Positions 24,147-42,188 of a stretch of 46,349 nucleotides of DNA are shown one piece after another. Location: positions 1 to 46,349 of the forward strand of contig CALUVS010000015.1 of NCBI GenBank assembly GCA_944324265.1, in the 5' to 3' direction. This DNA comes from an uncultured Traorella sp. Lineage in GTDB: Bacteria; Bacillota_I; Bacilli_A; Erysipelotrichales; Erysipelotrichaceae. Below the pieces are notes generated by a model that was not told the origin of the DNA, did no database searches, and saw only the letters and a list, made by a program, of their open reading frames with translations. The position numbers were made by a program, and so were the translations under genes. How positions within the stretch are numbered: the stretch's first letter is position 1; each line of letters begins with the position of its first letter.

Positions 24147-24162
24147 AAACATCAAAAAAACT

Positions 24163-24232
24163 TGACTCCCTACGCTAGTACTAACTAGATCAGGTCATAA
24201 GGGACTCTCTCAGCCGTTCGGCACCCCTGTCT
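24163..24232 (-). promoter_or_regulatory. TPP (thiamin pyrophosphate) riboswitch aptamer
   Basis: The minus strand carries the THI-box hallmarks in order: GGGGTGCC, then GGCTGAGAGAG, then ACCTGATCTAGTTAGTAC, then GCGTAGGGAG. This is the classical TPP aptamer and it precedes thiT. High TPP should reduce thiamine-transporter synthesis. Confidence 0.95.
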
Positions 24233-24242
24233 TGACAAAAGT

Positions 24243-24951: not shown

Positions 24952-26562
<1,611 letters not shown>

Positions 26563-28095
26563 TTACTCCCATTCTACTGTTCCTGGAGGTTTAGAAGTAA
26601 TATCATACACTACGCGGGTAATGCCCATGATTTCATTCGTAATACGGCTGCTGGCCTTTTCTAAGACTTCATATGGCAGTCGAGTCCATTCAGCCGTCAT
26701 AAAGTCATCTGTGGTCACAGCTCTTAAAGCGACTGTGTAGCCATAAGTTCTGGCATCGCCTTTAACTCCGACAGAGCGCAGATCAGTCAATACTGCAAAA
26801 TACTGATTTGTGAAGTTTTCTAAATGAGCGTTGGCAATTTCTTCACGGAAGATCGCATCTGCTTCTCTTAATACATCCAATCTCTCTTTCGTAATTTCAC
26901 CAATGATACGGACAGCTAAGCCAGGTCCTGGGAATGGCTGACGCCAAACAAGTTCATGAGGAATGTTCAGCTGAGTCCCTGCTTCACGCACTTCATCTTT
27001 GAATAAATCCTTTAATGGTTCTACGATTTCATCAAAGGCAATAACATCCGGCAATCCGCCGACATTGTGGTGACTCTTGATAACGGCAGAATCCCCTTTA
27101 CCGCTTTCAATCACATCCGGATAAATCGTTCCCTGTACCAATACATCGATCTTACCCAGTTTTTTTGCTTCATCTTCAAAGACACGGATAAATTCTTCAC
27201 CGATGATCTTGCGTTTCTGTTCAGGATCTGTCACATGAGCTAATTTGCTTAAGAAACGATCTTCCGCATTAACACGAATCAAATTGATTCCAAACTGTTT
27301 GCCGAATGTATTTTCAACAAAATCACCTTCATCCTTGCGCAGCAATCCATGATCCACAAAGACACAAGTCAGATTTGTTCCGATAGCTTTGTGCAGCAAT
27401 ACAGCTGCGACAGAAGAATCGACACCGCCGGATAATGCCAGCAATACTTTCTTGCCAGCCAGCTCTTTTTTGTACTTAGCAATGGAGCTGTCGACAAAGT
27501 TTTCCATTTTCCATTCTGCTGCACATCCGCATACTTTGAAAATAAAATTGTGCAGCATTTGTTTTCCATAAGCTGTGTGAGTCACTTCTGGGTGGAATTG
27601 AACTCCATAAAGCTTTCTTGATTCATCACACATAGCAGCACAAGGACATTTATCTGTGTGAGCAATAATTTCAAAGCCCTTTGGTGCTTCTTTGACATAA
27701 TCCGTGTGGCTCATCCAGCAAATACTTTTTTCCGGTACATCATCAAATAATACATTCTTTTTAACATATACTTCTGTTTTACCGTATTCACTGCTGTTTT
27801 CAGCGGATGTAATTTCACCATCAGCCATATAAGCCATCAATTGTTCCCCATAACAAATCCCTAATACCGGAATTCCAAGATCTAAAACAGCTGGATCATA
27901 GTGCGGAGATTTTTCATCATAAACACTGTTGGGTCCACCTGTAAAGATAATTCCTTTATATCCGATTTCTTGGATTTCCTGAGGTGTAATTTTATTATAA
28001 GGCTTAATTTCTGCATAAACATGTTCTGAACGAACTCTGCGGGCAATCAATTGATTATACTGTCCGCCAAAATCTAATACTAGTATCTTATCCAT
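26563..28095 (-). CDS. guaA: GMP synthase (glutamine-hydrolysing)
   Basis: Amination of XMP to GMP. Domains in order: class I glutamine amidotransferase ([19 protein letters not shown], nucleophile in [16 protein letters not shown]), ATP pyrophosphatase with PP-loop [16 protein letters not shown], and C-terminal dimerisation domain ending PPGTVEWE. 510 aa, full length. It lies 17 bp behind purB with GAGG upstream. Confidence 0.98.
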
Positions 28096-28112
28096 TCACT
28101 CAACCTCTTTTC

Positions 28113-29528
28113 TTATAAATTTATTTCTGCATCGACTGCCTGCACATTTTCAAGCAATGGCGCAATTTTTTCCACAAAGGCTTCTACCTGGTGCACACAG
28201 CGTCCGATATAAGAAGAAGCATCCAATAATTGTTCCATTTCTTCTTCACTTAAGCCAAATTCTTTTTCTGCGGCTAATCGTTTCAATAAGTCACAGTCTT
28301 CTCCGTTTTTCATCTTAGCTGTAGCTTCCATTGAACATTTACGAATGATCTCATGAAGCTGCTGGCGATCGCCGCCTTTCTTAACAGCTTCCATCATCAA
28401 GTTTTCTGTGGCAATAAAAGGCAAATATTCTTTGACAGCTTTTTCAATGATCTTTTCATTGACATGCAGTCCATCAGTAATATTTTGGGCCAAACGCAAA
28501 ATGGCATCCGCACATAAGAATCCTTCCGGCATAGAAATACGGCGATTGGCAGAATCATCCAATGTTCTTTCCATCCATTGCACAGAGGCCGTCATCGGTG
28601 CATTCATCGCATCAGCCATTAAATAGCGAGCCAAAGAACAAATACGTTCACTTCTCATTGGATTACGTTTATAGGCCATTGCAGAGGAACCAATCTGATT
28701 TTTTTCAAATGGTTCTTCAATCTGACGGTCATGCTGAAGCAGACGAATATCATTGGCCATGCGATAACAGCTTTGAGCAATAGAAGACAATGCATTTAAG
28801 ATTCTGCTGTCTACTTTTCTTGGATATGTCTGTCCGGCAACATCAAAGCATTCTTCAAAGCCGAAATCCTGAACAATCATGCGATTCATCTCATCAATCT
28901 TTGCTTCATCGCCTTCAAACAGATCCATAAAGCTTGCTTCTGTTCCGGTTGTTCCGCGGCATCCTAAGAATTTGATATTTTCAATAGCAAAATCAATTTC
29001 CTTTAAATCAGAAACAAAGTCCTGCATCCATAATGTTGCACGTTTCCCTACCGTCACAAGCTGTGCTGGCTGATAATGTGTGTAGCCAAGTGTCGGCAGA
29101 TCTTTGTACTGAAGCGCAAAGGCAGAAAGATTCGCCAAGACTGCGCATACTTCCTGACGCAGATAGCGCAGGGCATCACGATAGAGAATCAGATCTGCAT
29201 TGTCGGTGACATAGCAGCTGGTTGCTCCCAAGTGAATAATACCGGCAGCTTTCGGTGCCGCTTTCCCATAAGCATATACATGAGCCATGACATCATGACG
29301 TACTTCCTTTTCTCTTTGGCTGACACATTCATAATCAATATCCTCAATGTGAGCCTTTAATTCATTGACTTGTTCTTCTGTGATCGGAAGACCTAATTTC
29401 CTTTCTGCATCGGCCAATGAAACCCAAAGCTTACGCCATGTCTGATAACGTGTATCAGCTGAGAAAAGGTGAAGCATATACTTAGAAGCATAGCGGGAAG
29501 ATAAAGGGGATTCATATTTATCTGTCAT
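28113..29528 (-). CDS. purB: Adenylosuccinate lyase
   Basis: Fumarase-superfamily enzyme that releases fumarate from adenylosuccinate and from SAICAR, thus acting after both PurA and PurC of this operon. The signature GSSAMAYKRNPMRSE and LGATSCYVTDNADL are clear. The start is ATG 29528 (6 bases after GGAGG); a TTG two codons earlier abuts the ribosome binding site and is unlikely. At 471 aa it resembles the longer, eukaryote-like PurB branch rather than the roughly 430-aa Bacillus form. Confidence 0.96.
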   Translation of the reverse strand: MTDKYESPLSSRYASKYMLHLFSADTRYQTWRKLWVSLADAERKLGLPITEEQVNELKAHIEDIDYECVSQREKEVRHDVMAHVYAYGKAAPKAAGIIHLGATSCYVTDNADLILYRDALRYLRQEVCAVLANLSAFALQYKDLPTLGYTHYQPAQLVTVGKRATLWMQDFVSDLKEIDFAIENIKFLGCRGTTGTEASFMDLFEGDEAKIDEMNRMIVQDFGFEECFDVAGQTYPRKVDSRILNALSSIAQSCYRMANDIRLLQHDRQIEEPFEKNQIGSSAMAYKRNPMRSERICSLARYLMADAMNAPMTASVQWMERTLDDSANRRISMPEGFLCADAILRLAQNITDGLHVNEKIIEKAVKEYLPFIATENLMMEAVKKGGDRQQLHEIIRKCSMEATAKMKNGEDCDLLKRLAAEKEFGLSEEEMEQLLDASSYIGRCVHQVEAFVEKIAPLLENVQAVDAEINL

Positions 29529-29538
29529 ATTCAACCTC

Positions 29539-30813
29539 CTATTTGCGGATGATGCTGTCGCGATCTGCCCCTACTGAAATATAAGTGATAGGACAGCCGA
29601 TAGCCTTTTCAATATATAGGATATATTGCTGAGCTTCTTTTGGCAAGTCTTCAAAGCGGCGAACTTGTGAAATATCACATTTCCATCCATCAAAATATTC
29701 CACTACCGGTTCTGCGTCTTCCAAAGCCAGCGGGAATGGAAACTCATCAATTTGTTCATGATTCAATAAATAGTGAGTACATACCGGAATTTTATCCATA
29801 TAACTTAATACATCCAACTTTGTTAAAGCAATCGCAGTCGCACCTTGCACCTGCACTCCATAACGTGTCGCAACGATATCAATAGGTCCTACTCTTCGAG
29901 GACGTCCAGTTTTAGCACCATATTCTGCCCCATATTGACGCAGCTGTTCTGCTTCTTCTCCAAACATTTCACAGACAAATGGTCCTTCTCCTACACAAGT
30001 AGAATAAGCTTTCACCACTCCAATCACATCATGAATCTGTGCATTTGGAAGACCAGATCCAATCGGTGCATACGCTGCAATGGTATTGGAAGAAGTTGTA
30101 TATGGATAAATACCGAAGTCAAGATCTCTTAAAGAGCCTAATTGAGCTTCAAATAAAATATTTTTTCCTTCTGCCTGTGCTTTTCTTAAATAAGAGGATG
30201 TATCCGCAATATAAGGCTTAATTTTTTCACAGTAATCATTCAGCCACGCATCCAGCATTTCCATTGTATAAGGTTCTGCTCCATAGATTTTTGTCAATGT
30301 CAGATTTTTCCATTCCATTAAATCTGTCAAATGAGCTCTTAGCTTTTCAGGATAGAATAACTCTCCGGCCAAAATTGTTTTCTTTTGATATTTATCAGAA
30401 TAGAAAGGTGCAATTCCTTGTTTGGTAGAACCATATTTTTTATCTTTCAGACGATTTTCTTCCAAAGCATCACAATCACGATGCCATGGCAGAAGCAATG
30501 AAGCACGATTGCTGATCATCAGATTTTCCGGTGTTAATGATACCCCTTTATTCATGATATCTTCCATTTCAATCCAAAGATTTTCCGGATCTAATGCTAC
30601 ACCGTTGCCTAAAATATTGACAACATTTTTTCTGAATATTCCGGATGGCAGTAAATGTAAAGCAAATTCACCTAATTCATTGATAACTGTGTGACCGGCA
30701 TTTCCTCCGCCTTGATAGCGCACAACCACATCGTAGTTCTCAGTCAAGAGATCTACCATTCTGCCTTTTCCTTCATCACCCCAGTTAATTCCTACAATTG
30801 CACAATTAGCCAT
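29539..30813 (-). CDS. purA: Adenylosuccinate synthetase
   Basis: GTP-dependent joining of aspartate to IMP. The N-terminal catalytic motif reads WGDEGKGRMVD (an Arg replaces the usual Lys at the end of the GDEGKGK loop), followed by GGGNAGHTV with the catalytic His. TTSSNT, GRPRRVGPIDIVATRY and TKLDVL are also present. 424 aa, complete. Gap to purC is 11 bp. Confidence 0.97.
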   Translation of the reverse strand: MANCAIVGINWGDEGKGRMVDLLTENYDVVVRYQGGGNAGHTVINELGEFALHLLPSGIFRKNVVNILGNGVALDPENLWIEMEDIMNKGVSLTPENLMISNRASLLLPWHRDCDALEENRLKDKKYGSTKQGIAPFYSDKYQKKTILAGELFYPEKLRAHLTDLMEWKNLTLTKIYGAEPYTMEMLDAWLNDYCEKIKPYIADTSSYLRKAQAEGKNILFEAQLGSLRDLDFGIYPYTTSSNTIAAYAPIGSGLPNAQIHDVIGVVKAYSTCVGEGPFVCEMFGEEAEQLRQYGAEYGAKTGRPRRVGPIDIVATRYGVQVQGATAIALTKLDVLSYMDKIPVCTHYLLNHEQIDEFPFPLALEDAEPVVEYFDGWKCDISQVRRFEDLPKEAQQYILYIEKAIGCPITYISVGADRDSIIRK

Positions 30814-30824
30814 GTTTTTTCCTC

Positions 30825-31538
30825 CTATATATGTTGTTTTAAACGGTTCATGATCTGTTGGTAGGCTTCTTCCACACCGCCGAGATCCTGACGGAATCTG
30901 TCTTTATCCAACTTTTCTTTGGTCTGGCTGTCCCATAATCGACAAGTATCCGGACTGATCTCATCAGCCAAAATAATCTGATGATTGACATCACGGCCAA
31001 ATTCAAGCTTAAAGTCCACTAATATTATACCGCATTCCTGCCAGAATGCTCTTAATTGTTCATTAACTGCAAAAGCATATTTTTTAATTGTTTCTAATTC
31101 TTCTTTTGTTGCCAGTTTTAAAGCAATGGCATGAGTTTCATTCATCAACGGATCATTTAATGCATCATTTTTATAAGAAATTTCAAAAGTCGGTTCATCA
31201 AAAACAATGCCTTCTTCTACCCCATAGCGTTTGGCAAAAGAACCTGCTGAAATATTACGAATAATTACTTCCAAAGGCACAATAGATACTTTTTTAACTA
31301 AAGTTTCTCGTTCAGATAATTCCTCTACATAATGTGTCGGAATACCGGCTTTTTCAAGTCTTTGCATCAAATAATTGCTCATTTGATTATTGATGATTCC
31401 TTTTTGATCAATACGTCCCTTTTTTTGACCATTGAATGCAGTGGCATCATCCTTATAAGAAACAATAAGAAGATTTGGATCTTCACAAGTAAATACTTTT
31501 TTGGCTTTTCCTTCATAAAGCAGTTCTTTTTTGATCAT
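30825..31538 (-). CDS. purC: SAICAR synthetase (PurC)
   Basis: Phosphoribosylaminoimidazole-succinocarboxamide synthase, which adds aspartate in the eighth purine step. Motifs: LLYEGKAKKVF, VVPLEVIIRNISAGSFAKRYG-type region (here IVPLEVIIRN) and ISPDTCRLWD. 237 aa, typical. It leads the purC-purA-purB-guaA-pyrG operon. Its leader contains a promoter, a terminator and an alternative hairpin, listed separately, so entry into the whole operon appears to be gated by attenuation. Confidence 0.97.
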   Translation of the reverse strand: MIKKELLYEGKAKKVFTCEDPNLLIVSYKDDATAFNGQKKGRIDQKGIINNQMSNYLMQRLEKAGIPTHYVEELSERETLVKKVSIVPLEVIIRNISAGSFAKRYGVEEGIVFDEPTFEISYKNDALNDPLMNETHAIALKLATKEELETIKKYAFAVNEQLRAFWQECGIILVDFKLEFGRDVNHQIILADEISPDTCRLWDSQTKEKLDKDRFRQDLGGVEEAYQQIMNRLKQHI

Positions 31539-31560: not shown

Positions 31561-31608
31561 AAAAAATGCAATGGCTTCTTCATGATGTTTCATCAAAGAC
31601 TCCATTGC
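31561..31608 (-). terminator. Intrinsic terminator in the purC leader
   Basis: A 7-bp GCAAUGG/CCAUUGC stem (31602-31608 with 31568-31574) encloses an inner GAUG/CAUC hairpin and is followed by AUUUUUU on the minus strand. It lies between the purC promoter and the purC ribosome binding site, and also downstream of the asnB stop. It can therefore both end the asnB transcript and attenuate purC. Confidence 0.85.
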
Positions 31609-31612
31609 CTTT
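31595..31612 (-). promoter_or_regulatory. Candidate antiterminator hairpin in the purC leader (ANTAR-type hexaloop)
   Basis: The RNA AAAGGC, loop AAUGGA, GUCUUU folds into a 6-bp stem (one G-U) closing a hexaloop with A at position 1 and G at position 4. It uses the 5' arm of the terminator, so the two folds exclude each other. The same element is found before gdhA. A1/G4 hexaloops are the known recognition feature of ANTAR proteins. Confidence 0.6.
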
Positions 31613-31624
31613 TTTTACGTGGTT

Positions 31625-31653
31625 ATTATGCCCTTTTTTAGTATTTTTGTCAA
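31625..31653 (-). promoter_or_regulatory. Promoter of the purC operon
   Basis: Perfect -35 TTGACA (31648-31653), 17-base spacer, -10 CATAAT (31625-31630) on the minus strand. The start point should fall about five bases before the candidate antiterminator hairpin. Confidence 0.75.
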
Positions 31654-31666
31654 TATCTTTATGATT

Positions 31667-33250
31667 TTATTTCCCAGAGTCTCCATAATTCGATAAGACT
31701 CGGGCAGAAGGGTCATTTACCTGGCAGCCTTGCCATGATTGATTCGGCATCCAGAAGCCTTGAATCATCTGAGATTGATTTGGGTAATATTTTTCAAAGA
31801 TTTCTCGATAAAGCAATGATTCCTTGGTAAAAGGAGCGGCATGATCATATTTTTGACTCTTTTCAATGAATTCTTCCTGACTGTACAGCTGTTCGGCATA
31901 AGCCTTCAGATCATCAACCATGGAATGACCGACAGCGTCGGAGAAAGCAGCTTTTTCTCGCCACAGTATCTCATGAGGAAGCAGTCCGTCATTTTCAAAA
32001 GCATTACGCAGCATATATTTTCCGATGCCATGATGATTCATCAGCAATTCAGGATTCAGCGACATGACATATTTGACAAAGGCCAGATCGCCGAAAGGAA
32101 CACGAGCTTCCAGTGAATTGACGGAGATGCAGCGATCCGCTCTTAAAACATCATACATATGAAGTTCTCGCAGACGTTTTTGGGCTTCTTCGTGAAAAGC
32201 CTGAGCTGAAGGTGCAAAATCTGTATATTTGTAGCCAAATAGTTCATCGGATATTTCTCCGCTCAGCAATACTTTGATGCTGCTATGTTCATGAATGGCT
32301 TTGCATAGCAAATACATGCCGATGCTTGCACGAATGGTTGTGATATCATAAGTTCCTAAGATCTTGATGACCTCATCCAATGCATCAATCACATCTTCTC
32401 GGCTCATATAAAATTCATGATGTTCGCTGCCAATGAATTCGGCTGTCTGTCGAGCATATTTCAAATCAATAGGATCTTTTTCCATGCCGATGGCAAAGGT
32501 TTGAATCGGTTTTTGACTTTTTTTGGCTGCAATGGCACACACCAAGGATGAATCCAATCCGCCGGATAAAAGGAAACCGACTTGGGCATCAGATACAAGA
32601 CGCTTTTCCACACCGGCAATCAGAAGATCATGAATCTTATGACAGGCTGTTTCCTGTTCATCTAAGCAAAGAGTACTTGTTTCAGCAATATCGCAATAAC
32701 AGATAAATTGACCTTTCTGATAATAGTGGCCGCATGGAAAAGGAAAAATCTTGTCACACAGGCCCACAAGATTTTTTGGTTCACTGGCAAATACAATTGC
32801 ACCGTTTTGATCATAGCCATAATACAAGGGACGAATACCGATGGGATCTCTTGCAGCAATAAATTCATGATTTTCAGCATCGTAGATAATGCAGGCAAAT
32901 TCTGCATCCAGCATAGCAAACATAGCTGTTCCGTACTCCTGATACAGCGGAAGCAGTATTTCACAATCACTGCCGCTTTGAAAAGAATATCCTTTTTGTT
33001 TCAGTTCTTCTTTTATTTTATCAAATCCGTATATTTCACCGTTGCAGACAACATAACTGCCATTCAACTCAAAAGGCTGCATGCCCGCATCACTGAGTTC
33101 CATGATAGCTAAGCGATGAAAGCCCAATAGACCTTCTTCTGTTTCAATGATGCGCTTATCATCCGGTCCTCTGGAGATTGTTCTCATAAAGCCTTTCATA
33201 AAAGCATCTTTGTTGATATTTTTTGTGCAGTAACCCATGATTGAACACAT
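31667..33250 (-). CDS. asnB: Asparagine synthetase B (glutamine-hydrolysing)
   Basis: Makes asparagine from aspartate, ATP and glutamine. The N-terminal Ntn amidotransferase domain starts at Cys2 (MCSIMG) and has SRGPDD, GFHRLAIMELSDAG and NGEIYG; the synthetase domain has the PP-loop LLSGGLDSSLV near 230 and SGEISDELFGYKY. 527 aa, close to the E. coli AsnB type. It follows the glnN fragment by 18 bp with GGAGG upstream, so it belongs to the gdhA-glnN-asnB transcript. Confidence 0.96.
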   Translation of the reverse strand: MCSIMGYCTKNINKDAFMKGFMRTISRGPDDKRIIETEEGLLGFHRLAIMELSDAGMQPFELNGSYVVCNGEIYGFDKIKEELKQKGYSFQSGSDCEILLPLYQEYGTAMFAMLDAEFACIIYDAENHEFIAARDPIGIRPLYYGYDQNGAIVFASEPKNLVGLCDKIFPFPCGHYYQKGQFICYCDIAETSTLCLDEQETACHKIHDLLIAGVEKRLVSDAQVGFLLSGGLDSSLVCAIAAKKSQKPIQTFAIGMEKDPIDLKYARQTAEFIGSEHHEFYMSREDVIDALDEVIKILGTYDITTIRASIGMYLLCKAIHEHSSIKVLLSGEISDELFGYKYTDFAPSAQAFHEEAQKRLRELHMYDVLRADRCISVNSLEARVPFGDLAFVKYVMSLNPELLMNHHGIGKYMLRNAFENDGLLPHEILWREKAAFSDAVGHSMVDDLKAYAEQLYSQEEFIEKSQKYDHAAPFTKESLLYREIFEKYYPNQSQMIQGFWMPNQSWQGCQVNDPSARVLSNYGDSGK

Positions 33251-33268
33251 ATTCTTTCCTCCAATAAA

Positions 33269-33892
33269 TTATTTAATGCTGAAAAGCAAATCAGCGTAAG
33301 TCGGGAATGGCCAATAGTTTTTCGCCGTTATCGTTTCAGCCTCATCACAAGCTTTTCTGAGATCTTGCATCATCGGCAAAAGCGTATCACGAATTTGATC
33401 TGCTTGTTCCATGATATTCGGATATTGCTGCAATAAAGCAGCTTCTGATGCTAATGCCTCTTTTTTATCGGCGATTTCATCTGTCAAACAGGAAAGTCTG
33501 CTGACGGTATTGATTTCATAGCGGCATGCGATGTTTTCATTCAATTGCTTCTTTTTCAAAGTATTGCGAGCCAAGTCAGAAGCGTATTTTTCAATCGTCG
33601 GAAGTATCTGTTTCTGTACCATATCAATCATGGTATTGGCTTCAATGATAATATTATGACAATAGTTTTCCAGCATGATCTCACACCTGGATTTCAGTTC
33701 AGCTTCACTGAATACATGATGTGATGTCAGCATATCCACATTCTTTTTATCCAGAATATGCGGCATACAGTCCGCGGTTGTCGGATAATTGTTCAGATGA
33801 CGTACTTCCACGGCTTCTTTGATCCAATGTTCATCATAACCATTGCCGTTAAAGATAATGCGTTTATGCACCGTAATCGTATCTTTGATCAA
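33269..33892 (-). CDS. glnN: C-terminal part of frameshifted type III glutamine synthetase
   Basis: This 207-codon frame starts at a TTG without a ribosome binding site, but it continues the upstream gene in the -1 frame. It holds the type III C-terminal region: [18 protein letters not shown], a long helical part ([20 protein letters not shown]) and the terminal [11 protein letters not shown]. Reading the same frame upstream past 33892 gives a [13 protein letters not shown]-like sequence that fits the family, so the break is one base at 33923-33926 and not a real second gene. Confidence 0.85.
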
Positions 33893-35364
33893 TTTCTGCA
33901 GTGCATCTTGAAAATCTTTGGCTTTTCCAGCTGATCCGCATAAATCTTCAATGATTCCGCAACAGCACTGTTAAGCATAATATTGGCACAGGCAATGCTG
34001 TCAGAGGAACCGACCATTCGGAATTCAAATTTATTGCCGGTAAAGGCAAAAGGAGAAGTACGGTTGCGGTCTGTGGTATCACGGCTGAATTTAGGCAGAA
34101 CGTCCACTCCCAGCTTCATTTTGATTTTTTCTGTACCTTTATAAGGTGTATCATTTTCTATTGCTTCCAAAACGGCATTCAATTCATCGCCCAAGAAGAT
34201 GGAAACAATGGCCGGCGGAGCTTCATTGGCACCTAAACGGTGATCATTACCGGCAGTTGCGACTGAAAGCCGCAATAAATCTGAATAATCATCCACGGCT
34301 TGTATAACGGCACATAGAAACAATAAGAATTGTGCATTTTCATAAGGCGTATCCCCCGGCGACAATAAGTTTTGTCCGCTGTCTGTAGCCAATGACCAGT
34401 TGTTGTGTTTGCCGCTGCCGTTGACACCCGCAAAAGGTTTTTCATGCAATAAACAAACCAATCCGTGACGGCCGGCAATTTTCTGCATCATTTCCATTGT
34501 CAGCTGATTTTGATCGCAGGCCACATTGACACTTGTATAAATAGGAGCCAGTTCATGCTGAGAAGGAGCTACTTCATTATGTTTGGTTTTGGCATAGATG
34601 CCTAATTTCCATAATTCTTCATCCAATTCTTCCATGAAAGCCGCTACTCGCGGCTTAATGACACCGAAATAATGGTCATCCATTTCCTGCCCTTTCGGTG
34701 CTTTCGCACCGAACAATGTTCGTCCGCAGAAAATCAAATCGGGACGCTGTTCATACATTTCTTTGGTAATCAAGAAATATTCTTGTTCCGGACCGACATA
34801 AGGACGCACGCACTGTACATGATCATTGCCGAACAGGCACAGGATGCGCAGTGCCTGCTTATTCAAAGCTTCCATAGAGCGAAGCAGCGGCGTTTTCTTA
34901 TCCAAGGCATTGCCGTCATAAGAACAGAATGCTGTCGGAATGCATAAAGTCTTATCTTTGATAAAGGCATAAGAAGTCGGATCCCATGCGGTATATCCTC
35001 TTGCTTCAAAAGTAGCGCGAAGTCCGCCGTTAGGGAAAGAAGAAGCATCAGGTTCTCCTTTGATAAGTTCTTTGCCGCTGAATTCCATGATCACACCGCC
35101 ATCCAGAGAAGGAGTGATAAAACTTTCATGTTTTTCTGCCGTAATGCCGGTTAGCGGCTGAAACCAATGAGTAAAATGGGTAGCACCTTTGCTGATGGCC
35201 CACTCTTTCATGGCTTGCGCAACTGCATTGGCTACACTGAGATCAATTTGTGTCTGACAGTTAATTGTCTTTTTTAATGATTTGTACGCTTTGGCTGTTA
35301 AACGTGATTTCATTTCTCGTTCATCAAAAACCATGCTTCCGAAATATTCAGGTATTGTTTTCAT
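33889..35364 (-). CDS. glnN: Type III glutamine synthetase GlnN, N-terminal part (gene frameshifted)
   Basis: Large dodecameric GSIII found in Bacteroidetes, cyanobacteria and gut Firmicutes; it joins ammonia to glutamate. The frame holds the GSIII signatures: [45 protein letters not shown], the KHNNWS segment and [15 protein letters not shown]. It ends prematurely after 491 codons with an unrelated tail, while the rest of the protein is in the next frame. The two parts sum to about 698 residues, normal for GSIII. Everything else is conserved, so this is a recent inactivation, a sequence error, or programmed slippage. It lies between gdhA and asnB. Confidence 0.9.
33923..33926 (-). other. Frameshift site in glnN
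   Basis: On the minus strand the frame changes at CTG GAA AAG CCA. One extra A in the AAAA run would give Leu-Glu-Lys-Ala-Lys-Asp-Phe and join the two halves of GlnN. Four A's is short for a sequencing homopolymer error and too short for the classic A AAA AAG slippery heptamer, though an A AAG slip is conceivable. Confidence 0.75.
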
Positions 35365-35389
35365 ATTCTATTTTCTCCTTTAAAGAATT

Positions 35390-35417
35390 AAGACAAAGAT
35401 GTCAGCACCTTTGTCTT
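35390..35417 (-). other. Hairpin between gdhA and glnN
   Basis: A perfect 9-bp stem (AAGACAAAG/CTTTGTCTT) with a 10-base loop lies between the gdhA stop and the glnN ribosome binding site. There is no clean U-run after it, so it could be a leaky terminator or a processing/stability element that sets gdhA above glnN. Confidence 0.5.
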
Positions 35418-35426
35418 TGATTTTGA

Positions 35427-36826
<1,400 letters not shown>

Positions 36827-36835
36827 ATGCATTGC

Positions 36836-36864
36836 ATTTTACACATTATCTTATTACTTGTCAA
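36836..36864 (-). promoter_or_regulatory. Promoter of gdhA-glnN-asnB
   Basis: Perfect -35 TTGACA (36859-36864), 17-base spacer, -10 TAAAAT (36836-36841), minus strand. Transcription should begin about three bases before the candidate antiterminator hairpin. Confidence 0.75.
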
Positions 36865-36939
36865 CCTTTTTCTTTCATCATTTTCATAAAAATATGAAAA
36901 TCTTTCAATTTTCAATAGCAAATTACCTTAAGTTGTGTT

Positions 36940-36945
36940 TATAAT
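36940..36945 (+). promoter_or_regulatory. Probable -10 box of glnA-ANTAR transcript
   Basis: A perfect TATAAT precedes glnA by about 30 bases. The sequence 17 bases further upstream (AGCAAA) is a poor -35, which may indicate an activator or simply a weak promoter. No terminator-like hairpin follows, unlike in the divergent gdhA leader. Confidence 0.45.
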
Positions 36946-36974
36946 AGAGTATTAGTTATGAAAGGATGAGATTT

Positions 36975-38186
36975 GTGAAATATTCAAAAGAAGAAGTAAT
37001 GCAATATGTATCGGAAGAAGATGTGAAATTCATTCGTCTTGCTTTCTGCGATGTGTTCGGCAGACAGAAAAATATCTCCATCATGCCGAATGAATTGGCA
37101 CGTGCTTTTGAATATGGAATTGCTTTTGATGCCTCTGCTGTCAAAGGTTTCGGCGATGAAACGCACTCAGATCTGCTGCTTGTGCCAGATCCGGAAACAT
37201 TATCTTTATTGCCATGGCGTCCTGAACACGGAAAGGTCGTGCGCATGTATGCAGATATATTGACTCCTTGCGGCAATCCTTATGAATGTGATACGCGGCG
37301 ATTGATAAAAAAAGCCATGAAAGAGGCTGAAGAAAAAGGCTATCATTTTGCTTTTGGAGCAGAACAAGAATTTTATTTGTTTCAATTGGATGAACACGGA
37401 AAACCGACCAAGATTCCTTATGATCAGGCCTCCTATATGGATATTGCCCCAGAGGATCGAGGAGAAAATGTTCGCCGTGAAATATGTCTGACATTGGAAC
37501 AAATGGGAATTTTGCCTGAAAGTTCTCATCATGAAGAAGGCCCCGGACAAAACGAAATTGATTTCCGTTATTCCGATGCACTGACTGCCGCCGATAATGC
37601 AGTCACTTTTCAGGCTGTCGTCAAAACAATTGCTCATCGCAACGGATTATTTGCTGATTTCAGCGCCAAACCATTAAAAAAATTTCCTGGCAATGGTTTC
37701 CATATCAATATTTCTCTTCACTCTGAGAAGAAAGAAGATTGTCTGCCTTTTGTTATTGCCGGCATTCTGAACCGCATTGATCAATGTACGCTTTTCTTAA
37801 ATCCGACGGAAAATTCTTATGAGCGCTTTGGTTCTCATAAAGCACCGGCTTATATTTCTTGGTCCAATGAAAACCGTTCACAACTTGTCCGTGTGCCTGC
37901 CGCAATCGGTGAATATCGTCGGGCAGAGCTCCGCAGTGCCGATCCGAGCGCTAATCCTTATCTTGCATTTGCTTTGATCATTTATGCAGTGCTGGAAGCC
38001 ATTGAAAAGAAAATCGAATTGCCGAAACCGGCAGATTTCAATTTATTTAAAGCCGATAAAGAAGTTTTAAAGCAGCTGAAACATCTTCCGGGTACATATC
38101 AGGAAGCTTATAAGGCTGCTGCAGAGAGTGATTTTATCAAAAAATATATTCCATCATCAATCTTAGATATTTATCGCAATTCATGA
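36975..38186 (+). CDS. glnA: Type I glutamine synthetase, short form
   Basis: ATP-dependent glutamine formation. Metal and substrate residues are intact: FGAEQEFYLF (two Glu), HHEEGPGQNEID (two Glu), GNGFHIN (His), NRSQLVRVP and RAELRSADPSANPYL (Glu, Arg). At about 403 aa it is roughly 40 shorter than standard GlnA, lacking the segment after GNGFHIN and much of the C-terminal end, including the usual adenylylation-loop tyrosine motif. I prefer GTG 36975, with AAAGGA 8 bases upstream; ATG 36966 overlaps that site. It is co-transcribed with an ANTAR regulator 18 bp downstream. With a broken glnN nearby, this may be the only working synthetase in this region. Confidence 0.93.
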   Translation: MKYSKEEVMQYVSEEDVKFIRLAFCDVFGRQKNISIMPNELARAFEYGIAFDASAVKGFGDETHSDLLLVPDPETLSLLPWRPEHGKVVRMYADILTPCGNPYECDTRRLIKKAMKEAEEKGYHFAFGAEQEFYLFQLDEHGKPTKIPYDQASYMDIAPEDRGENVRREICLTLEQMGILPESSHHEEGPGQNEIDFRYSDALTAADNAVTFQAVVKTIAHRNGLFADFSAKPLKKFPGNGFHINISLHSEKKEDCLPFVIAGILNRIDQCTLFLNPTENSYERFGSHKAPAYISWSNENRSQLVRVPAAIGEYRRAELRSADPSANPYLAFALIIYAVLEAIEKKIELPKPADFNLFKADKEVLKQLKHLPGTYQEAYKAAAESDFIKKYIPSSILDIYRNS

Positions 38187-38204
38187 TCAAAGGAGGGGAG
38201 CAGA

Positions 38205-38789
38205 ATGAGTTTGAAAGAACGGATCAGCAGTGTTCTTGTTGTATCAGCTGCCGGTAACTTCATTCAGACCTTATATGAATATTTGCCGGAAGAAAAATAT
38301 TCCCCTATTTATACTGTATCAAATATCAGTGCTGCCAAAAGGGCAGTATGCGAACAATCCTTTGATTTTGTGATCATCAATTCTCCTTTGCCCGATGATG
38401 CAGGCATTCGCTTTGCTATTGATGCCAGTACGATACGCCATGCCGTTGTATTGCTGCTGGTTCGTTCGGAATTATATGAAGCTGTTTTTGATAAAGTGAT
38501 GGAACAGGGTATTTTTGTTTTGTCAAAGCCAACTTCTCGTTCATTTCTTATGCATGCTTTGGATTGGATGGAAGTGGTCAAAGAAAGAGAACGACTTCAT
38601 GAGAAAAAAACACATTCATTGGAAGATAAGATGGCAGAAATCAAATTAGTCAATCGGGCAAAAATAATATTGATGGAACAATCCTTGATGGATGAAGCGC
38701 AGGCACATCGCTGCATTGAAAAACAAGCGATGGATCGCTGTGTCAGCAAGCGCGTCATCGCAGAAGAAATCATTAAGAAACATTCCTAA
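38205..38789 (+). CDS. ANTAR-domain antiterminator with a degenerate receiver domain
   Basis: RNA-binding antitermination regulator, 194 aa. Residues about 8-120 resemble a response-regulator receiver (VLVVSAAGN, DFVIINSPLPDDAG, VLSKPTSRS), but the acidic pocket is missing and the phosphoacceptor position is Asn59, so aspartyl phosphorylation looks impossible. A charged coiled-coil (about 120-140) leads to the three-helix ANTAR domain (about 140-192: KLVNRAKIILMEQ, then EAQAHRCIEKQAMDR and VIAEEIIKK). ANTAR proteins bind hexaloop hairpins and prevent terminator formation. It sits behind glnA with a strong GGAGGGG site. Likely targets are the hairpins before gdhA and purC (inference). Confidence 0.87.
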   Translation: MSLKERISSVLVVSAAGNFIQTLYEYLPEEKYSPIYTVSNISAAKRAVCEQSFDFVIINSPLPDDAGIRFAIDASTIRHAVVLLLVRSELYEAVFDKVMEQGIFVLSKPTSRSFLMHALDWMEVVKERERLHEKKTHSLEDKMAEIKLVNRAKIILMEQSLMDEAQAHRCIEKQAMDRCVSKRVIAEEIIKKHS

Positions 38790-40097: not shown

Positions 40098-42188
40098 TTA
40101 ACCATTGCTTTTAACTACTTTTTCTGCAATTGACTTAGGTACTTCAGCGTAGTGGTCCATCTTCATAGAGTAGTTACCACGTCCCTGAGTAAATGAACGT
40201 AAGTCAGTTACATAACCGAACATTTCAGAAAGTGGGATATATGCACGAACCATTGTAGCATTTCCTCTTTCTTCCTGATCATTGATCTGCCCGCGGCGAG
40301 ATGAGATATCTCCCATGACTGAACCTACATATTCAGTTGGTGCAGTTACATCAACTAACATGATTGGTTCAAGCAGAACAGGTTTACATTTCTTAGCAGC
40401 TTCTCTTAATGCCATAGAAGCAGCGATCTTATAAGCCATTTCACTTGAATCGACATCGTGGTAAGAACCATCAAACAATGTAGCTTTGATATCGATAACT
40501 GGATAACCGGCAATTAAACCGTTAGCCAATGCAGCTTCAGTACCTTCAGCGATAGCCTTGATGTATTCTTTTGGTACAGATCCACCGACAGTAGCATCTG
40601 TAAATTCGAATCCAGCACCTTCTTCATTTGGTTCAAATCTGATCCAAACGTGACCGTACTGACCACGACCACCTGATTGCTTAATGTATTTACCTTCACA
40701 GTCAGCAGCCTGACGGATTGTTTCACGGTAAGCAATCTGAGGAGCACCTGTGTTAGCTTCTACTTTAAATTCACGTCTTAAACGGTCAACGATGATGTCA
40801 AGGTGAAGTTCCCCAACACCGGCAATAATTGTCTGACCAGATTCTGGATCAGTATAAGTCTTGAATGTAGGGTCTTCTTCAGCAAGTTTCTGAAGACCTA
40901 AAGTCATCTTATCCTGGTCACCTTTAGATTTAGGTTCTACTGAAATCTGAATAACTGGTTCAGGGAATACCATTGATTCAAGGATGATGTGAGCATCTTC
41001 AGCACACAATGTGTCCCCAGTAGTTGTATCTTTCAGACCAACACCGGCAGCGATGTCACCTGCATATACCTGATCAATTTCTTTACGAGAATTCGCATGC
41101 ATCTGTACGATACGTCCGAATCTTTCACGTTTTCCTTTTGTAGCGTTCAGCACATAGCTTCCTGCTTTGCATGTACCTGAGTAAACACGGAAGTAAGTTA
41201 ACTTACCGATGAATGGGTCAGTCATGATCTTGAATGCTAATGCTGAGAATGGTTCGTTGTCATCTGCGTGACGAGCAACTTCTGTACCATCTTCCAATGT
41301 ACCTACGATAGCAGGGATATCAACTGGAGAAGGCAAGTATTCAACAACACCGTCAAGCATTAACTGAACACCTTTGTTTTTATAAGCAGAACCGCAGAAT
41401 ACTGGGAAGAATTCACCAGTCAATACGGCTTTACGGATAGCAGCTTTGATTTGAGGAATTGTAGGTTCTTCACCTTCAAGTACCATCATCATCAAGTCAT
41501 CATCGAAATCAGCTACTGCTTCAATCAATTCCTGACGTTTTGCTTCCATTTTATCTTTCAGGTTTTCTGGCACTGGAATTTCAACGATATTCACGCCGTA
41601 ATCACCTTCGAAGTCATATGCTTTTCTTTCCAACAAGTCAATGATACCGCTGAAATCAGATTCAGCACCGATTGGCAGCTGTACAGCAGCCATCTTAGCA
41701 TCCAAACGAGTTTTGATTGTATTGCAGCTCATGTCAAAGTCTGCCCCAGTTGCATCCATCTTGTTGACGAATACAATACGAGGTACACCATAAGCAGAAG
41801 CCTGACGCCATACTGTTTCAGTCTGAGGTTCAACCCCAGCCTTAGCATCCAATACAGTTACGGCACCGTCAAGTACACGTAATGAACGTTCTACTTCAAC
41901 AGTAAAGTCTACGTGACCTGGAGTATCGATAATGTTGATACGGTGAGTCGCAAACTGTTTCTTGCTTCCTGCCCAGTGAGCAGTAGTTGCTGCAGAAGTA
42001 ATCGTAATACCACGTTCCTGTTCCTGAGCCATCCAGTCCATTGTAGAAGCACCATCGTGTGTTTCCCCAATTTTGTGGTTTACCCCAGTGTAGTACAGGA
42101 TACGTTCAGTTGTAGTTGTCTTACCGGCATCGATGTGAGCCATGATCCCGATATTACGAGTGTGTTCCAATGAATATTCACGTGCCAT
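40098..42188 (-). CDS. fusA: Elongation factor G
   Basis: Translocation GTPase, 696 aa. G1 [10 protein letters not shown]3 [10 protein letters not shown]4 NKMDATG, plus the domain IV segment [11 protein letters not shown] whose tip enters the decoding site. Between rpsG and tuf as in other str operons. Confidence 0.99.

Follow-up and report, generated by a model that had tools for sequence, protein, structure and literature searches.

AmiR and NasT are ANTAR proteins that are held by a partner protein (AmiC and NasS, respectively), and in clostridia, the REC-ANTAR gene encoding NitR is found behind glnA. To our knowledge, neither a single-hexaloop leader motif nor nucleotide-synthesis targets are on record for clostridial NitR. 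The RNA targets of ANTAR proteins are defined by A1 and G4 of a hexaloop (PMC3369931), and those of firmicutes, proteobacteria, and actinobacteria have been described as dual, although single sites in the supplementary tables are possible. Deletion of the first hairpin impairs control by EutV (PMC3369931). Previous work showed that EutV engages a single hexaloop at any one time, which defines the minimal site, and raised the prospect that single-hexaloop targets may exist; the authors nevertheless held that both hexaloops are needed in turn for antitermination, and they urged further work on single-hexaloop motifs (Walshe et al. 2022, PMC8934654). A literature search combining ANTAR with "single hexaloop" returned that study alone.

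The leaders described here resemble the EutV/eut, NasR/nasF, and AmiR/amiE systems (Ramesh et al. 2012, PMC3369931) in that an A1/G4 hexaloop overlaps a terminator in the 5' leader, the genes are nitrogen related, and a cognate ANTAR protein is encoded in the genome. They differ from those targets in having one hexaloop, which lies at the very start of the transcript, 10-21 nt past the -10 box, in the added AANGRN loop consensus and invariant C-G pair, and in a regulon that includes nucleotide-biosynthesis genes. Compared with the single-hexaloop binding of EutV (PMC8934654), there is here a whole regulon with one hexaloop at predicted antitermination sites. As in AmiC-AmiR and NasS-NasT, a receiver-like ANTAR protein is encoded beside its likely signal partner, but this neighbor is a glutamine synthetase (glnA) rather than a ligand-binding sensor, and the partnership is a putative one. 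We regard it as very likely that the purC leader attenuates transcription under the control of a NitR-like ANTAR protein that is predicted to bind it. The window, meaning the whole 46,349-nucleotide stretch of DNA that was analyzed, contains the following genes:

24952..31538, minus strand: purC-purA-purB-guaA-pyrG, the operon under the purC leader (gene calls)
31667..36776, minus strand: gdhA-glnN (frameshifted)-asnB, the operon upstream of purC (gene calls)
36966..38186, plus strand: glnA, type I glutamine synthetase, upstream partner of nitR (gene call)
38205..38789, plus strand: NitR-like protein with a degenerate receiver and an ANTAR domain (Pfam and alignments)

On the minus strand, gdhA-glnN-asnB is followed by purC-purA-purB-guaA-pyrG, with glnA and the REC-ANTAR gene oppositely oriented. 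The first-pass annotation of this DNA had named asnB, purC, purA, purB, guaA, pyrG, gdhA, and glnN correctly, with glnN, which encodes a type III glutamine synthetase (window 33269-35364, minus strand), lying in two frames owing to a frameshift at ~33920, near codon 480. Its homolog in Lachnospiraceae bacterium 28-4 is one uninterrupted 698-aa frame, and the break in the window would be either that of a pseudogene or an assembly error. Between the cluster at 31667-38789 and the same bacterium, GlnN is 85% and NitR 62% identical, while identities to the examined genomes of its own order are 63-74% and 27-38%, respectively; horizontal transfer of this nitrogen cluster is possible. PurA is encoded once in the genome, so that the adenylate branch would fall under the purC-leader switch, and a distant second PurC (37% identity) is found at G000:C49:14276-14902. 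Outside these operons, a TPP riboswitch (24150-24238, minus strand) precedes a gene for a ThiT/YuaJ thiamine transporter. The purC leader has the following features:

31667, minus strand: asnB stop
31625..31653, minus strand: purC promoter, sigma-A-type, TTGACA-17-CATAAT (motif match)
31595..31612, minus strand: single ANTAR-type hexaloop hairpin AAAGGC-[AAUGGA]-GUCUUU, putative antiterminator (match to model R1, 47.1 bits)
31561..31608, minus strand: intrinsic terminator GCAAUGG...CCAUUGC-U6 (folding)
31550, minus strand: purC ribosome-binding site GGAGG (sequence)
31538, minus strand: purC ATG (sequence)

The -35 box TTGACA (31653-31648) and the -10 box CATAAT (31630-31625) are separated by a 17-nt spacer on the minus strand, and the promoter scores 11/12, placing it among the two best promoter matches in a 15-kb stretch. 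From the position of the -10 box, transcription is predicted to start at ~31618. The terminator lies within 60 nt of the promoter; GCAATGG (31608-31602) pairs with CCATTGC (31574-31568), followed by T6 (31566-31561). The first-pass annotation had placed this terminator after asnB and the purC promoter and before the purC ribosome-binding site, and the coordinates bear this out. The leader folds with -22.3 kcal/mol compared to a mean of -11.9 for shuffled sequences (z -3.7), and none of 200 shuffles was equally stable. The 5' arm of the terminator doubles as part of a hairpin that presents an AAUGGA loop on six pairs, with the A1 and G4 of the ANTAR-target signature, and the two folds are mutually exclusive. 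Computing both folds, as the annotation had proposed, gave -20.8 kcal/mol for the terminator and -8.5 kcal/mol with the hexaloop forced. The earlier description of an attenuator with antitermination as the likely mode is supported; what that description overlooked is the alternative ANTAR-type hexaloop formed with the terminator 5' arm. A second copy of the element is found upstream of gdhA:

36836..36864, minus strand: gdhA promoter TTGACA-17-TAAAAT (motif match)
36810..36825, minus strand: hexaloop hairpin AAGGC-[AAAGGC]-GUCUU (match to model R1, 44.9 bits)
36779..36820, minus strand: intrinsic terminator of the gdhA leader, overlapping the hexaloop (folding)

Here, the AAAGGC loop is carried on five pairs, and the terminator fold has -21.8 kcal/mol versus -7.9 for the hexaloop fold. 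Because the terminator fold is favored in both leaders, termination would be the default, and the hexaloop would persist only with a protein bound to it. Fourteen fixed bases are common to the purC and gdhA leaders, and their exact pattern occurs at only these two places in the 2.2-Mb genome; having been derived from the two leaders themselves, the pattern shows that they share it and that it is absent elsewhere in the genome. With model R1, the next best score in this genome after the two leaders is 26.7 bits. The gdhA-glnN gap (35431-35385, minus strand) contains TATAAT, 13 nt, CAAAGGTGCTG, and then a 9-bp hairpin, and CAAAGGTGCTG is also present in the glnN leader of G151 (L102). With its broken hexaloop stem and weak U-tract, this gap element looks like a decayed glnN attenuator.

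The element is not confined to the window. Twenty stretches of 7-20 kb, nearly all around nitR homologs, and 23 later loci were scanned for an A1/G4 hexaloop overlapping a terminator. Where 29 such elements were found, a Markov control gave 3.4, close to the tally of evidently false ones. In NitR-bearing relatives and the window together, single-hexaloop leaders total 55, with a few sites entered under two loci, and precede glnN (23), glnA (10), amt (7), pyrG (5), a class-II amidotransferase (5; Pfam GATase_2), and purC (2), as well as gdhA, purA, and guaA. Terminator overlap was found automatically in 44 of the 55, and the AAUGGA loop of purC is a less common variant, present in two. Direct comparison of purC leaders from close relatives was mostly uninformative, as purC is in other operons there, and an exact-pattern search across the order gave few matches; through one of them, the amt leader of G104 was found. 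The second purC leader with the element (G151, L102 17079-17026) lies in a different gene context and is equipped with its own promoter and attenuator. An Oscillospiraceae metagenome genome carries the element before both guaA and pyrG (L190 2978, minus strand, and 5018, plus strand), which indicates that nucleotide-synthesis genes are targets outside the window as well. Tandem arrangements of two or three units, each with a terminator, precede amt in G104 and G037 and glnN in Lachnospiraceae bacterium 28-4, the last with three single-hexaloop attenuators (L188 4480-4800, minus strand).

The hexaloop stem covaries, with 33 both-side changes versus 12.1 in shuffled alignments and a score of 0.619 versus 0.301 that was reached in none of 500 shuffles. 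Four of the five pairs change on both sides, and shifting the partner abolishes the covariation. In 24 aligned hairpins, the closing C-G pair, A1, A2, and G4 are invariant, and the loop conforms to AANGRN. These data bear on one alternative, that a plain terminator of the asnB operon sits beside an unregulated purC promoter and the hexaloop arises incidentally from the stem sequence. The terminator is indeed the only intrinsic one in the asnB-purC gap (31608-31561, minus strand), and the hexaloop hairpin is weak alone (-3.5 kcal/mol), but the terminator is located downstream of the purC promoter, and the covarying stem and fixed loop recur in the 55 leaders and track the distribution of NitR, which makes this alternative very unlikely.

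For the distribution itself, model R1 was built from promoter plus hairpin using 25 training sequences from NitR genomes; as it includes the promoter, the geometry of the latter accounts for some of its specificity. Among 148 genomes of the order, R1 matched 22, all of them within the 32 that have a NitR match and none of the 116 that do not (Fisher 7e-19). Since the training sequences come from NitR genomes, the fair count is that outside the training set, where 5/11 NitR genomes were matched versus 0/116 (p 1.8e-6). Ten of the 32 genomes with a NitR match had no R1 match at threshold. At the untrained sites that were inspected, every downstream gene was glnA, glnN, amt, or an amidotransferase. 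In a sample of 392 genomes of the phylum, R1 matched ten, nine of which have an ANTAR protein; the tenth match was rejected as a chance one that falls on a ribosome-binding site.

The genome encodes only one ANTAR protein, the NitR-like protein directly behind glnA, 7 kb from the purC leader. Its ANTAR domain was identified with PF03861 (E 1.9e-15; 56.8 bits, cut-off 27.3), and its receiver falls just under the Pfam cut-off. Used as a single query, it matched four named or metagenomic relatives; it aligns alone with Rv1626 (1s8n) and AmiR (1qo0), and a profile of the protein and its relatives aligns also with EutV (6wsh) and NasR (4akk). The receiver lacks the phospho-acceptor Asp, with Asn59 where 1s8n has Asp in the alignment, and in 18 homologs, Asp occupies this column in a minority. 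As we read the alignment, the acidic pocket appears lost. Given a receiver of this kind, a partner protein likely carries the signal, and GlnA may be the most plausible one; at 18 of the 19 ANTAR loci that were inspected in relatives, glnA immediately precedes the ANTAR gene. The order is inverted in other families of the class, with an ANTAR gene directly upstream of a glutamine-synthetase-like gene whose product has 37-41% identity to GlnA (L169, L176-L179), and at these loci, single-hexaloop leaders were mostly not found.

It may be asked whether the hexaloop is bound by some other RNA-binding protein that occurs together with NitR, as binding by NitR is a prediction from sequence. Among the RNA-touching residues listed for EutV (PMC8934654), Met172 appears kept in NitR, while our reading of the alignment places His at Tyr164 and Glu at Arg168. 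However, AmiR too has His at the Tyr164 position, the loop bears the ANTAR-target A1/G4 signature, and NitR is the sole ANTAR protein and belongs to the same gene cluster. We consequently see only a slight chance that a different protein is the binder.

The purC and gdhA elements have several attributes of ANTAR targets, namely an A1/G4 hexaloop on a stem of at least three pairs, overlap with a terminator, and an ANTAR protein in the genome, while a P1 to go with P2 across a short linker was no more frequent than by chance in 41 leaders. By these sequence features, the element is a variant of the ANTAR-target kind that stands outside the dual-hexaloop family. By analogy with the described systems, a single hexaloop may be insufficient, or the binder may be a different protein. 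Where a promoter is recognizable (47 leaders), 10-21 nt separate the end of the -10 box from the loop; with a start ~7 nt past the -10 box, just 3-14 nt of RNA, mostly stem, precede the loop, leaving no room for a recruitment hairpin (P1). Of 41 leaders, one has a second A1/G4 hairpin within 50 nt upstream and two have one within 40 nt downstream, compared with shuffling expectations of 1.6 and 1.8, respectively. As known ANTAR antitermination sites are dual, P1 might be supplied by a longer transcript starting upstream, for instance by read-through from asnB, but a second hairpin being no commoner than by chance on either side, together with a promoter so close ahead of the loop, renders a dual target of this type extremely improbable.

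In searches with Rfam covariance models, none, the purine riboswitch included, matched the purC leader or the hexaloop elements of the window at the gathering score, permissive thresholds gave only unrelated chance matches, and no PurR box was found near purC. This agrees with the earlier claim, in which control follows nitrogen and involves neither a purine riboswitch nor a PurR box. A 21-codon open reading frame that starts from AUGG overlaps the leader, with no properly spaced ribosome site. Although a short, terminator-bearing leader before a purine operon is the usual site for a metabolite riboswitch, T-box, or leader peptide sensing purines, CTP, or glutamine, such protein-free attenuation is scarcely credible in view of these negative searches, the lack of a proper ribosome site for the AUGG frame, the size of the conserved RNA 5' of the terminator (a hairpin of 3-8 bp, too small for a known aptamer), and the presence of the element before amt and glnA as well. 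A lone exact PurR-box-like sequence, ATAACCGAACATT, lies inside the elongation factor G gene (40212-40224, plus strand) and is probably there by chance.

The preferred reading, attenuation under the control of NitR, draws on sequence and comparison, which have shown the mutually exclusive folds, the covariation of the stem, the invariant C-G pair and AANG loop, the position beside the promoter, the co-occurrence with NitR, and the gene content; from these, we infer NitR binding, its direction (antitermination), and the signal. By default, a polymerase that starts at the purC promoter would make the terminator (~+10 to +57) and stop. Active NitR would catch the hexaloop within the first ~25 nt as the RNA leaves the polymerase and hold the hairpin, tying up loop and 3'-arm bases needed by the terminator, so that purC-purA-purB-guaA-pyrG would be transcribed. 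The gdhA leader would work likewise, and both operons would switch with nitrogen assimilation. A site at the very 5' end may dispense with the recruitment hairpin, and the signal would perhaps arrive via a partner protein, for which the co-encoded GlnA is the most plausible candidate.

With a single terminator between asnB and purC, polymerases arriving from gdhA would run into this switch too; a joint 11.8-kb transcript is physically possible, and read-through from gdhA-glnN-asnB into purC, as the first-pass annotation suggested, is possible. Apart from any such read-through, purC has its own strong promoter. In none of the relatives examined was asnB found next to purC, and the purC of G151 has a promoter and attenuator of its own, which argues that read-through is at most a local consequence rather than a conserved role.

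At a broader level, we think it likely that there are widespread single-hexaloop ANTAR attenuators, lying within the first ~20 nt of the RNA, through which a phosphorylation-independent NitR linked to glutamine synthetase controls nitrogen assimilation and the amino-group steps of purine and CTP synthesis, and that no recruitment hairpin is needed, as the target is exposed at the onset of transcription. Whether single-hexaloop targets operate naturally is a question that the structural analysis of EutV did not answer (PMC8934654), and the regulon described here, with dozens of natural single-hexaloop sites at terminators, lets that question be tested directly. Models with two hairpins are not expected to detect these elements. 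The data also suggest that an RNA-binding antiterminator may have glutamine synthetase for a partner. GdhA, GlnN, and AsnB act in ammonia fixation or amide nitrogen transfer, while PurC, PurA, GuaA, and PyrG catalyze amino-group-adding steps of nucleotide synthesis and PurB is the lyase that serves PurC and PurA. If our reading is true, one RNA switch would serve both nitrogen assimilation and the steps that insert nitrogen during nucleotide synthesis (PurC, PurA, PurB, GuaA, and PyrG).
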